Part shown: positions 319-58,304 of the stretch, one piece after another
Numbering within the stretch: the stretch's first letter is position 1
Layout: each line of letters starts with the position of its first letter
NCBI RefSeq assembly: GCF_900110875.1
Contig: NZ_FOFM01000002.1
Location: 124,001-188,000, forward strand
Reading direction: 5' to 3'
Length of the DNA stretch: 64,000 bases
Source of the DNA: Pseudovibrio axinellae
GTDB taxonomy: Bacteria > Pseudomonadota > Alphaproteobacteria > Rhizobiales > Stappiaceae
The notes under the pieces: generated by a model
Databases searched by the model: none
What the model saw: the letters and a program-made list of their open reading frames with translations, nothing else
What the model was told of the DNA's origin: nothing
Program-made: the position numbers and the translations under genes

Positions 319-1554
319 TTAAGGGATGAGCGACTGCTCTTCTAATGTTGGCTTTTTACGCGGCACGAATAGAAGGCACAGCGCGATTAAGGCCATGCTC
401 GGCATAACCAGACCAAGTGCTGCAACCGAGTCTTGCACAATAACCGCGGTGACGAGGCTGCCGAAGAAACCGCCTGCCATCTGAATGAAGCCCATCAGCG
501 CAGAAGCAGCACCGGCAATCTCAGGAAATGGATCCATTCCGCGCATAGAGAGCGCAGGCAGTGCCATCGAGGCACCAAACGCAAATACACCAATCGGGAT
601 CATGATGCTGAGGAAACTCAGCTGGTCAAACTGGGTTACACCAAACAATGCCAGCCCACCTACGGCACTCAAAACCAAAGCCGGGGCAAGCAGCTCTTCT
701 GCATTAAACCACCTGAGCAGAAACCTGGTTGCAACCCCACCGGCAAAGAACGAGCCAGATTGAAACACCATGCCCAGACCGAACTGCAACGGCGTAAGAC
801 CAAGCCGCTCAATCAACACAAATGGCAAAATGGATGCAAGCGTATAAATAACGCCGATTGTGAACCCAAGGATGAGTGCGGGCTGCATGAATTCAAACGA
901 CCGTAGTAAGGTCCAGTAGGACGCTAACATTTTCTTGGGGCGAATAAGCGCGACATTTCGATAAGCGTTTGTTTCTGGCACAATCGTCAATGTCATCAGC
1001 AAAATAAACGAGGCATAGACAACCATCAGAATAAAGATCGCCTGCCACCCAAAAGCGTTCATTGTAAGCGCACCGATACTCGGAGACAGCGCTGGCCCGA
1101 TCCCCAAAATCACGGCCATCAAATTCATGATGCGTGCGCCAACTTCTCCAGAAAACTGGTCACGAACAATTGCACGCGCAACAGCAATGCCGCTTGATGC
1201 GCCGATCCCTTGTACCAACCGGCCAAGCAGCAGCACCTCGATAGAAGGTGCCAGCCATGCCAGAATACTTCCCAGCAGATAAAGGCTAAAGAACCCAAGG
1301 ATAACAGGACGCCGCCCAAACGCATCTGATAAAGGACCGCACAGCAACTGTGCGAGCGTAAAGCCCGCAAAATAAACTGTCAGAGTGAGTTTTATGACAG
1401 AAGCGGTCGTATCAAAAGTTTCAGCAAGAGTCGGCAAGGCTGGAGTATAAAGCGCCAGGGAAAGCGGGCCAATTGTCACCAGCATTGCACCAATGACGGC
1501 CGTTCTGCCTGCAGAAAGTTTAAGGCCCGAAGATGGGCCTATTGTCTTTGTCAT
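319..1554 (-). CDS. MFS multidrug exporter, Bcr/CflA type
   Basis: A 411-residue major facilitator protein with about 12 hydrophobic segments. The loop after helix 2 carries GPLSDAFGRRPV (MFS motif A) and helix 4 has the LVQGIGASSGIAVARAIVRD stretch (a 20-residue hallmark) typical of the Bcr/CflA drug-proton antiporter branch. It probably exports drugs or small metabolites across the inner membrane; the substrate cannot be read from sequence. I chose the ATG at 1552-1554, which has GGAAAG a few bases upstream; an in-frame TTG six codons earlier is the alternative. The AraC gene next to it lies upstream on the same strand and might regulate it, but nothing in the sequence proves that. Confidence 0.9.
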   Translation of the reverse strand: MTKTIGPSSGLKLSAGRTAVIGAMLVTIGPLSLALYTPALPTLAETFDTTASVIKLTLTVYFAGFTLAQLLCGPLSDAFGRRPVILGFFSLYLLGSILAWLAPSIEVLLLGRLVQGIGASSGIAVARAIVRDQFSGEVGARIMNLMAVILGIGPALSPSIGALTMNAFGWQAIFILMVVYASFILLMTLTIVPETNAYRNVALIRPKKMLASYWTLLRSFEFMQPALILGFTIGVIYTLASILPFVLIERLGLTPLQFGLGMVFQSGSFFAGGVATRFLLRWFNAEELLAPALVLSAVGGLALFGVTQFDQLSFLSIMIPIGVFAFGASMALPALSMRGMDPFPEIAGAASALMGFIQMAGGFFGSLVTAVIVQDSVAALGLVMPSMALIALCLLFVPRKKPTLEEQSLIP

Positions 1555-5405: not shown

Positions 5406-5498
5406 GTATCTGCCCTCTCCAGACCGACCATTCAGCAGCCACCACCACCTGCCTCCCTGCTATCCGCCCCATCGCCATCCTTGCCCCCCCACCGGATG

Positions 5499-5611
5499 TC
5501 ATCCCGGACAAGCGAAGCGAAGAGCCGGGATCCATAACCACCGCACGGAAAAACGAAACTCACAGCATGCAGCAATCGCTGGGTGGGTCCCGGCTCAAAG
5601 GCCGGGATGAC
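5499..5611. repeat. REP-like palindromic repeat, copy 1
   Basis: GTCATCCCGG at 5499-5508 is the reverse complement of CCGGGATGAC at 5602-5611, and a second inner pair (CCGGGATCC at 5525-5533 with GGGTCCCGG at 5585-5593) gives a long imperfect palindrome. A related copy is at 57645-57753. Short palindromes beginning GTCATCCCGG are widespread between genes in alphaproteobacterial genomes. Here it sits between the typA terminator and the structured element, in the same order as in the second copy. Confidence 0.8.
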
Positions 5612-5680
5612 ACTGAGTTGGACGCTAGTTCATGACCTGAGTTAGCGCTAGCGCGCACCATAAGCCAGCAATTACCCACC

Positions 5681-6126
5681 TCTCCCCAACCAACAAGGCG
5701 GGTGAATGCGGGAAAAGTTATTCCCCTGGGCCAAAGCACCCTTATTCTAAATCCTGTGCTCACGTAAACGGGCAGCTGGCGGACCGTCCGTCAGTGCGGC
5801 GTGGGCTGGGCGGAGCTACTGGAAGAAGTAACGTATCTTTCGGCGGGTTCGTTGAAACACCCCTTGAAAGCCAACAGTGCAGAGGCCAAGCGGAAGCTGG
5901 TCAACCTGATGGGTGTCGGCACTGGCAGATGGATGTTTTTGGCACTTATCTGCTCACAATGCCTGTCGGGGATGACCTTGTTTCATACAAAAACGCCCAG
6001 GCAAGGTGATCAGCCAATGCCGAAGACTCATATTTAACCAAACTGCGCAGGTATTGCCTGCTCACCTTGCCTCCCCCGTTTTACGGGAACACATAAACCC
6101 ACACTGCATGTAAACCCATGCGGTGT
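5681..6126 (+). ncRNA. Candidate structured RNA, copy 1 (family unknown)
   Basis: This 446-base stretch is repeated at 57821-58268. Helices I can pair by eye: 5776-5783 with 5787-5794; 5857-5862 with 5911-5916, enclosing a hairpin at 5884-5902 capped by a GGAA (GNRA) tetraloop; the variable helix 5925-5936 with 5942-5953; 5999-6009 with 6062-6072 (11 pairs), stacked beside 6047-6051 with 6057-6061; and 6101-6110 with 6117-6126. Wobble pairs are G-U only if the plus strand is transcribed. Short reading frames cross it, but the second copy has a stop where this copy reads on, so protein coding is unlikely. It resembles no RNA family I know. It ends five bases before the sodC stop codon. Confidence 0.65.
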
Positions 6127-6131
6127 TAAAG

Positions 6132-6737
6132 CTATTTGCGGTCACTCGGCATTTCTTCAGGGTAACTCTGAAAACCATCGGCATTTTGTGTCACTGGCAC
6201 AATTACACCGCATGCGATCCGCCCCCCGGCATCACCGCTCGGCTGGCTATGATAATCGTCAGCGTTTTCATGAATAACCAACGCCCGGCCAGACCCTCCG
6301 ATCAAACTGTTCTTGTCATCAGGCGCCAAATGCAGCGTCTTGGAAAACACCTCAAGGATAAGCTTGCCGTTAAGCGGTACATGCAGGTTTGGCAAATCAC
6401 CTGCATGTGCTCCATTTTTCACGTCAATTCCGTGGTCATGGCCTTCCGGTGCAAAATGTCCTCCCGCTGCTGCAAAAGTAGGTTCGCAGAGTCCATTTTC
6501 ATGCACATGAAACCCATGCTCTCCAGGTGGCAGCCCGTCAAACATTGCCGTGATATGAAGGATGCCGCTCGGTGTTTCATTCAAAACAACCTTGCCAACC
6601 GCCTTGCCATCAACGTCCTTCATAATTGCAACCGCAGTCGGCCCACCAGGAACGCGCTCGCTCTCAGCAGCCGCCCCTGCTCCACTCACAACGACAAGAC
6701 CAGCCACAACAATGGCTGCACATCCACTCAGCTTCAT
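6132..6737 (-). CDS. sodC: Periplasmic Cu/Zn superoxide dismutase
   Basis: A 201-residue secreted SOD that converts superoxide to oxygen and peroxide in the periplasm. The first 24 residues (MKLSGCAAIVVAGLVVVSGA...) form a signal peptide. Copper ligands appear in GFHVHENG, the zinc loop in GGHFAPEGHDHG, and the last copper histidine in DDYHSQP; the disulfide cysteines are in GLCEPTF and RIACGV. I use the ATG at 6735-6737, preceded by AGGAG, rather than an in-frame start 26 codons upstream that would bury the signal peptide. It converges on typA across the repeat region. Confidence 0.93.
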   Translation of the reverse strand: MKLSGCAAIVVAGLVVVSGAGAAAESERVPGGPTAVAIMKDVDGKAVGKVVLNETPSGILHITAMFDGLPPGEHGFHVHENGLCEPTFAAAGGHFAPEGHDHGIDVKNGAHAGDLPNLHVPLNGKLILEVFSKTLHLAPDDKNSLIGGSGRALVIHENADDYHSQPSGDAGGRIACGVIVPVTQNADGFQSYPEEMPSDRK

Positions 6738-19768: not shown

Positions 19769-19783
19769 TCTGTGCAAGAACCC

Positions 19784-19845
19784 GACCCTTTAGCTACTTG
19801 TTTAACGTGGTTGCAAGCCGGTCGACCAAATCACCACGGAATAGG
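19784..19845 (-). promoter_or_regulatory. SAM-II riboswitch upstream of metZ
   Basis: On the minus strand the leader contains CCGTGGTGATTTGGTCGACC, then GGCTTGCAACCACGTTAAAC and AAGTAGCTAAAGGGT. These are the conserved blocks of the SAM-II (metA-type) pseudoknot: P1 from GTGG pairing with CCAC, the GATTTG loop strand, the GTTAAACAAG strand and the GCTAAA strand. SAM-II elements occur before metX, metZ and metC genes of Alphaproteobacteria and lower expression when S-adenosylmethionine is plentiful. The assignment rests on sequence motifs and is firm; the exact ends are approximate. Confidence 0.93.
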
Positions 19846-19969
19846 TCGCGATTTTACCTTGAAAATACAGTAGGGTCAATCAATCAGCACAGGTTGCAGA
19901 CTTGGCCTACGATCAAACTTACGTTAATCAGTAAACCAACGAATTGAATATGAGTGGGCGAAATCAAAA

Positions 19970-57583: not shown

Positions 57584-57644
57584 ACCACAGTACTTTCCTG
57601 AGCGAACGCTCCCCTCGTGCCCCTTCACCATCCCCCACCCAGGA

Positions 57645-57753
57645 CATCCCGGACAAGCGAAGCGCAGAGCCGGGGGCCATAGCCGCCTGACGGTAAACAC
57701 AGAACTCACGCCATGCAGCAATCGCCGGGTGGATCCCGGCAAGCCGGGATGAC
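57645..57753. repeat. REP-like palindromic repeat, copy 2
   Basis: CATCCCGG at 57645-57652 is the complement of CCGGGATG at 57744-57751, with inner CCGGG and CCCGG segments as in copy 1 at 5499-5611. The shared words GGACAAGCGAAGCG and CATGCAGCAATCGC show common origin. It again lies between a plus-strand terminator and the structured element. Confidence 0.8.
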
Positions 57754-57820: not shown

Positions 57821-58268
57821 TCTCCCCAACCAACACGGCGGGTGCGTGCGAAAAAAGTTATTCCCGTAGGCCAAAGCCCCCCTATTCTAAATCCTGTGCT
57901 CACGTAAACGGGCAGCTGGCGGACCGTCCGTCAGTGCGGCGTGAGCTGGGCGGAGCTACTGGAAGAAGTAACGTATCTTTCAGCGGGTTCGTTGAAACAC
58001 CCCTTGAAAGCCAACAGTGCAGAGGCCAAGCGGAAGCTGGTCAACCTGATGGGTGTCGGCACTGGTAGGTAACTGTCGCAAACAGTTATTTACTCACAAT
58101 GCCTGTCGGGGATGACCTTGTTTCATACAAAAACGCCCAGGCAAGGTGTTCAGCCAATGCCGAAGAATTATATTTAACAAACAGCGCAGGTATTGCCTGC
58201 TCGCCTTGCCACTCCCGTTCCTACGGTACACAGGAGCGCTAACACTGCATGGGAATCCATGCGGTGTT
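57821..58268 (+). ncRNA. Candidate structured RNA, copy 2 (family unknown)
   Basis: This copy aligns with 5681-6126 at a constant offset of 52140 up to 58166. Between 57881 and 58064 only two bases differ from copy 1 (57944 and 57982). The helix 58065-58076 with 58082-58093 has 12 pairs around a CGCAA loop, although 9 of 24 arm bases and all loop bases differ from copy 1. The 11-pair helix of copy 1 is kept as nine pairs (58140-58148 with 58202-58210), with one A-U changed to U-G. The end hairpin 58241-58252 with 58257-58268 has 12 pairs. A stop codon just after 58069 ends the short reading frame shared with copy 1, which argues against coding. Confidence 0.65.
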
Positions 58269-58304
58269 ATGCGGGTTTTCCAGACACAGCACAAAACCAG
58301 CGCC

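Follow-up and report, generated by a model that had tools for sequence, protein, structure and literature searches.

The window (the whole 64,000-nucleotide stretch of DNA analysed here) lies in a 5.13 Mb genome of Pseudovibrio, family Stappiaceae, and its TypA protein shares 93% identity with the TypA of Pseudovibrio sp. Alg231-02. An NCBIfam scan covering five window neighbours returned typA and acnA above cut-offs; sodC, GNAT and carbonic anhydrase were best matches below cut-off. Rfam 15, searched across the window at gathering thresholds, gave only a SAM_alpha riboswitch at 19770-19847 on the minus strand. Two similar segments, copy 1 at 5681-6126 and copy 2 at 57821-58267, lie in the same orientation with about 90% identity. 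A sequence-only reading had taken copy 1 for an unassigned structured RNA with a second copy in the same orientation 52 kb away, and that copy is indeed there. The helices it had named are also all present: the GGAA hairpin (5884-5902), the rod (5999-6072), the variable helix (5925-5953) and the end hairpin (6101-6127). Its start for the RNA, position 5681, does not hold, as 5681-5755 consists of upstream flank and promoter-like sequence and is no part of the predicted transcript. The parts of the two copies are as follows.

5717..5726, plus strand: conserved upstream box, GTTATTCCCC in copy 1; the commonest form is AAAACTTATCCCC
5743..5748, plus strand: -10-like hexamer TATTCT of a putative promoter; often TATACT in Roseibium
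5756..6140, plus strand: predicted RNA, copy 1, ends approximate (5' end from the -10-like hexamer and the start of P1, 3' end from the end hairpin and U-rich tail)
5758-5764 with 5800-5806, plus strand: helix P1; two-sided changes at 7/7 pairs, 99.2% of cells paired
5775-5782 with 5788-5795, plus strand: hairpin P2; two-sided changes at 4/8 pairs, 98.7% of cells paired
5808-5812 with 5994-5998, plus strand: long-range helix joining the 5' and 3' domains
5813-5817 with 5846-5850, plus strand: helix P3; two-sided changes at 2/5 pairs, 98.4% of cells paired
5820-5825 with 5837-5842, plus strand: hairpin P4; two-sided changes at 6/6 pairs
5829-5833, plus strand: P4 loop TAACG, invariant across the 38 rows of the 5'-domain alignment A1
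5854..5984, plus strand: variable central domain, closed by 5854-5858/5980-5984 and 5860-5863/5968-5971
5884-5902, plus strand: GGAA hairpin with one bulged A, within the central domain, read from the sequence
5925-5930/5948-5953, plus strand: variable helix within the central domain, from type I consensus folds and sequence reading
5999..6072, plus strand: 3' rod, detected as an inverted repeat, with the internal loop GCCGAAGA / GCGCAGG
6101..6127, plus strand: end hairpin, then U-rich tail; 91.4% of cells paired
57857-57866, plus strand: upstream box of copy 2
57883-57888, plus strand: -10-like hexamer of copy 2
57896..58280, plus strand: predicted RNA, copy 2, ends approximate, downstream of acnA

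A GC-rich palindromic repeat, CATCCCGG...CCGGGATGACA, stands ahead of both copies (5498-5612 and 57643-57753) and extends their similarity upstream of the RNA. Pieces similar to this repeat occur near typA in several Roseibium loci.

The predicted fold has three parts, namely a 5' domain and a 3' rod that are both conserved and, between them, a central domain of several types; the long-range helix ties the two ends together. We analysed this fold by covariation in alignments anchored on conserved motifs, with significance taken from shuffles, which leave shared ancestry in place. Across 38 copies, the 5' domain has 26 pairs in four helices; 98.4% of cells are standard pairs and two-sided changes occur at 19 of the 26 pairs. 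Shuffled controls gave 90.1% pairing, with 0/500 attaining the observed values, and sliding the partners by 1-3 columns left 39-54%. Adding Roseibium (55 rows, 53 distinct) gave 98.8% pairing and two-sided changes at 21/26 pairs, in an alignment that was fitted to the model and is hence biased towards it. The 3' domain showed 94.2% pairing with two-sided changes at 12/25 pairs. For the rod in both genera the values were 92.7% and 10/18 pairs, and one measure, the number of further pair types, was matched by 4/500 shuffles. The long-range helix, in the best register among 196 scanned, had 11 two-sided changes and 98.4% of cells paired in 37 copies; the maxima of 1000 row shuffles were 8 and 96.2%. 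Because this helix covaries, the 5' and 3' ends belong to one molecule. Every pair of the 5' domain is kept in 28/38 rows (lowest 21/25) and every pair of the 3' domain in 12/38 rows (lowest 18/25). Single-sequence folding gave z = -3.9 on the plus strand and -2.4 on the minus strand. One copy of the source genome, L042 (G000:C86:524436-524716), has an end of the 3' rod and an end hairpin unlike the family; this row, degenerate in its 3' part, was omitted from alignments A1 and A2.

These compensatory changes, beyond shuffles and slid partners, speak for a structured non-coding RNA gene. The observation that changes between the two window copies preserve pairing thus extends to 38 copies and, in the wider alignment, to two-sided changes in the 5' domain, the 3' domain and the long-range helix. 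The direction argued from wobble pairs was also right. G-U cells outnumber A-C cells by 222:6 in the 5' domain and 101:16 in the 3' domain (38 rows each), and by 308:6 in the 5' domain with 55 rows, and the plus strand is therefore the RNA strand.

We then looked at the ends. In 56 Pseudovibrio copies the upstream box, with variants, stands at an equal place before the RNA, about 20 nt from the -10-like hexamer and ahead of P1. In the form CTTATCCNC it has no match elsewhere in the window, copies 1 and 2 carrying the GTTATTCCC variant. The exact motif CTTATCC, often as CTTATCCAC, occurs in 13 of the 15 Roseibium loci for which upstream sequence was available. Behind the end hairpin, the first 20 nt contain 40% T, compared with 25% at 60-120 nt (59 copies whose hairpin end was located by script). 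Each copy would thus carry its own promoter-like region, an end hairpin and a U-rich tail, and copy 1 has the appearance of a transcribed unit some 385 nt long. A box-plus-hexamer pattern so strict that it misses most RNA copies matched four places in the source genome, namely three RNA copies and one site ahead of gltX (L420, about 1495-1536, minus strand); its reversed control matched none. We considered a regulon sharing this promoter, and the single extra match is too few to call one. The gltX match may serve as a lead towards growth-linked control, no more.

No known family accounts for the RNA. Rfam gave zero matches overlapping it at four loci with copies, and at E up to 5 a search with copy 1, a Roseibium copy and a copy from another genome (G017) returned four miRNA/lncRNA matches, all far below cut-off; the view that the segment bears no known RNA signature stands even at such loose thresholds. 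The same reading had seen no convincing protein, and the wider set agrees. The copies fall into five types by central domain and total length (about 369, 409, 437, 456 and 461 nt), the central domain varying in both length and sequence among types. We followed six frames in each type, and none stays open throughout the RNA in every copy of any type. The longest run open in all copies was 57/122 codons in type I, 57/136 in type II and 32/153 in type V; a short ORF inside one type is possible.

Searches with a covariance model of the 5' domain showed that the window holds part of a larger set. The recurrence noted earlier was real, but the source genome (G000) has 19 copies at E 0.001, not two, and 20 at E 0.01; BLAST matches, after merging, fell at 18 places. 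The RNA is found in 14 of the 16 Pseudovibrio genomes searched, with 1-27 copies each and 17-27 copies in eight of them. From G000 to G015 the counts are, in order, 19, 24, 27, 10, 27, 2, 1, 0, 19, 23, 8, 24, 17, 7, 0 and 2. G006 thus has a single copy, and G007 and G014 are the only two of the 16 with none, by the 5' model as by the 3' model.

Within the family, 29 of 87 genomes matched the 5' model, comprising these 14 Pseudovibrio and 15 of 45 genomes of genus g6, which we call Roseibium in the wide sense (it includes Labrenzia sp. R4_2 and AO1-B); the other 30 gave no match to this model. The 3' model matched 33 of the 87, in four of seven genera. Copies in G017 and G027 score weakly with the 5' model and keep the upstream box (or CTAATCC), the GGACCG/GGGCCG hairpin and the rod, and G057 gave five weak matches, the GCCGAAGA motif being absent from the rows shown. 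An order-wide search with the 5' model matched 7/397 genomes, every one in Stappiaceae, and class-wide searches with either model found the source genome only (1/385). Weak 3'-model matches also occur in G344 and G310, which belong to a different family of the order, with no convincing 5' domain found beside them; two such matches in G344, L396 and L400, are rod-like. Absence beyond the family is weakly supported, because the large searches scored 9-15 candidates per genome.

We next compared the genomic sites of the RNA. In Roseibium three directly seen loci carry it downstream of typA, oriented like copy 1 (L059/L153, L060/L152 and L150, the paired names denoting 100% matches); at L060 two minus-strand ORFs stand between typA and the RNA, and L149 has the downstream flank common to the Roseibium typA loci. 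For acnA, the Roseibium evidence comes from a single locus, L148, where the RNA follows acnA as copy 2 does. L147 shares with L148 the RNA, the downstream flank and a short upstream piece, and no acnA was seen in its 3.1 kb. Within Pseudovibrio, locus L032 of G003 places the RNA next to acnA. In G006, GNAT and carbonic-anhydrase-like genes follow the only copy just as they follow copy 2, with protein identities of about 50-55%. Both window copies therefore occupy the two sites seen to be common to both genera. Since Roseibium has the RNA at both, the typA and acnA loci look old, and chance, which could explain one shared site, is less likely for two in equal orientation.

Positions are also shared between Pseudovibrio species. 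Of the 19 fetched G009 loci, 18 have flanks in common with a fetched G011 locus; in three of these only one flank matches, owing to contig ends. For the source genome, 10 of 18 fetched loci have a counterpart among the 19 fetched of the 24 G011 loci; of these ten, two match by a single flank and one is inverted. L051 of the source genome has its flanks inverted relative to the RNA when compared with L186 (G011) and L205 (G009). An empty-site proof attempted at the guaA locus gave no clean junction, the flanks in other species having diverged too far in between.

These patterns bear on the strongest alternative, a MITE-like or retro-copied mobile repeat, non-autonomous, that conserves its fold because its own spread depends on it. 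Up to 27 dispersed intergenic copies have the look of a repeat element, and both the modest overlap of 10 loci between the source genome and G011 and the inversion at one shared locus are what such an element could leave behind. Its footprints are missing, however. The mean longest word shared at the approximate ends was 5.16 compared with 5.07 in shuffles (68 copies, partly orthologous), giving no sign of direct repeats, and the two window copies have no terminal inverted repeats, their only repeats of at least 10 nt being internal. Positions are stable between species, with two sites common to both genera, and the copies carry the upstream box, which would be absent from any transcript. Plasmid and phage collections gave zero matches, which also led us to set aside a phage or plasmid origin. 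The motif pattern was found in at least 120 stretches of viral contigs, and the 5' model, run on the 80 listed stretches, gave one match at E 0.01, which we read as chance. On balance we regard a mobile repeat as unlikely.

The second alternative is an element acting in cis on its neighbour genes, as an insulator, a terminator or a long 3' region. The next ORF downstream, with ORFs called mechanically, is on the opposite strand at 15/18 loci of the source genome, many of these lying between convergent genes, which would suit such an element. Its neighbours argue otherwise: by reading, they are diverse, mostly housekeeping-type genes that are unrelated from locus to locus (typA/sodC-like, acnA/GNAT-like and others), and the RNA orientation varies at some loci. 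By reading, too, both window copies come after a gene's terminator-like hairpin, a point in favour of a cis role, but the RNA has a promoter-like region of its own and its size is far above what a terminator needs. We consider a cis-acting element very improbable. At the other three of the 18 loci, where the RNA and the next ORF share a strand, a leader role is possible. As improbable as a cis-acting element is a third alternative, a guide-RNA or intron-like element present at these sites as RNA alone, with its nuclease or reverse transcriptase encoded elsewhere and acting in trans. Such an element would be multi-copy and structured with a variable part flanked by constant parts, as here, but we found no Rfam match to any such family, no target duplications and, by reading of the nearest ORFs at 18 loci, which look unrelated, no common linked ORF and no HNH/RuvC nuclease.

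We favour, with a probability of about 0.8, a new family of large (about 370-470 nt) stand-alone structured RNA genes, without an Rfam match, that act in trans. Comparative sequence analysis establishes the structure and strand of the RNA, its range, the sites held in common and patterns of similarity that would fit slow homogenisation; the gene is probably transcribed. Action in trans is suggested because the neighbours are unrelated and the next downstream gene is usually on the other strand. The invariant loops TAACG and GCCGAAGA/GCGCAGG may bind a protein or another RNA, in which case the RNA would work as a ribonucleoprotein. Amplification of copies would raise the dose, and swapping of central domains would diversify the RNA. 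The ancestral copies would be those downstream of typA and acnA, the rest having arisen in Pseudovibrio by DNA-level duplication and gene conversion.

Evidence on gene conversion comes from positional counterparts. Among the distant species G000, G002 and G011 we compared 25 positional pairs, which share loci and are not independent; in 21 of them the RNA resembled its counterpart less than it resembled the best paralog in both genomes, and for G000 and G011 alone this held in 8/10. Between the close pair G009 and G011 the counterpart was less similar than both best paralogs in only 3/17 cases and more similar than both in 7/17. Given these values, homogenisation is probably slow or occasional. 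Central domains also differ at equal sites: copy 2 belongs to the 369 class, and its counterparts in G011 and G002 belong to the 437 class. In the Roseibium genome G038, two contig-end copies, L156 and L165, are 99.3% identical over 450 bases. Gene conversion among copies is the likely and simplest account, and loss with regain at the same sites is less likely. A bolder version is a cassette system, in which gene conversion would move central domains between constant 5' and 3' scaffolds at about 20 fixed sites, giving each lineage its own repertoire of RNA specificities that recognise proteins or nucleic acids. We offer this as a speculation with a rather small chance of being right.

An RNA of about 385 nt that compensatory change has conserved in a family of marine bacteria, and that has 17-27 genes per genome in eight of the 16 Pseudovibrio genomes, is unusual for a bacterial RNA outside rRNA and tRNA. 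Pseudovibrio species with about 20 copies, one or none would provide a ready genetic system, and the differing central domains at equal sites across species amount to a natural experiment on the function-setting part of the RNA. A literature search outside subscription papers and preprints found no report of the Pseudovibrio RNA, and the main texts of PMC11109978 and PMC8632094 contain no mention of Pseudovibrio, Labrenzia or Roseibium.

We rate the RNA as a new class, although structured RNAs that have genes of their own and no assigned role are in themselves a familiar kind. REP elements and MITEs are likewise dispersed, intergenic and hairpin-rich, but the Pseudovibrio RNA has a promoter-like region and stable positions, and it showed neither terminal inverted repeats nor target duplications.

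Some OMEGA/HEARO RNAs exist as RNA-only copies served in trans by an unlinked partner. HEARO/OMEGA RNA resembles the Pseudovibrio RNA as a structured RNA in many dispersed copies, whereas the latter has no linked nuclease ORF that we saw, no Rfam match and no insertion footprint. The alpha-r families are multi-copy, trans-encoded, intergenic sRNAs of Rhizobiales. They too are intergenic RNA genes with several copies in an alphaproteobacterium, while the Pseudovibrio RNA lacks an Rfam match, is heavily structured and is longer than the alpha-r RNAs. OLE, ROOL and GOLLD are large structured bacterial RNAs whose function is unclear. Like them, the Pseudovibrio RNA is several hundred nucleotides long, with many conserved helices and stand-alone genes. 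It differs from them in having no Rfam match, in being found here in one family only, bar weak 3'-domain matches, and in reaching up to 27 copies per genome.
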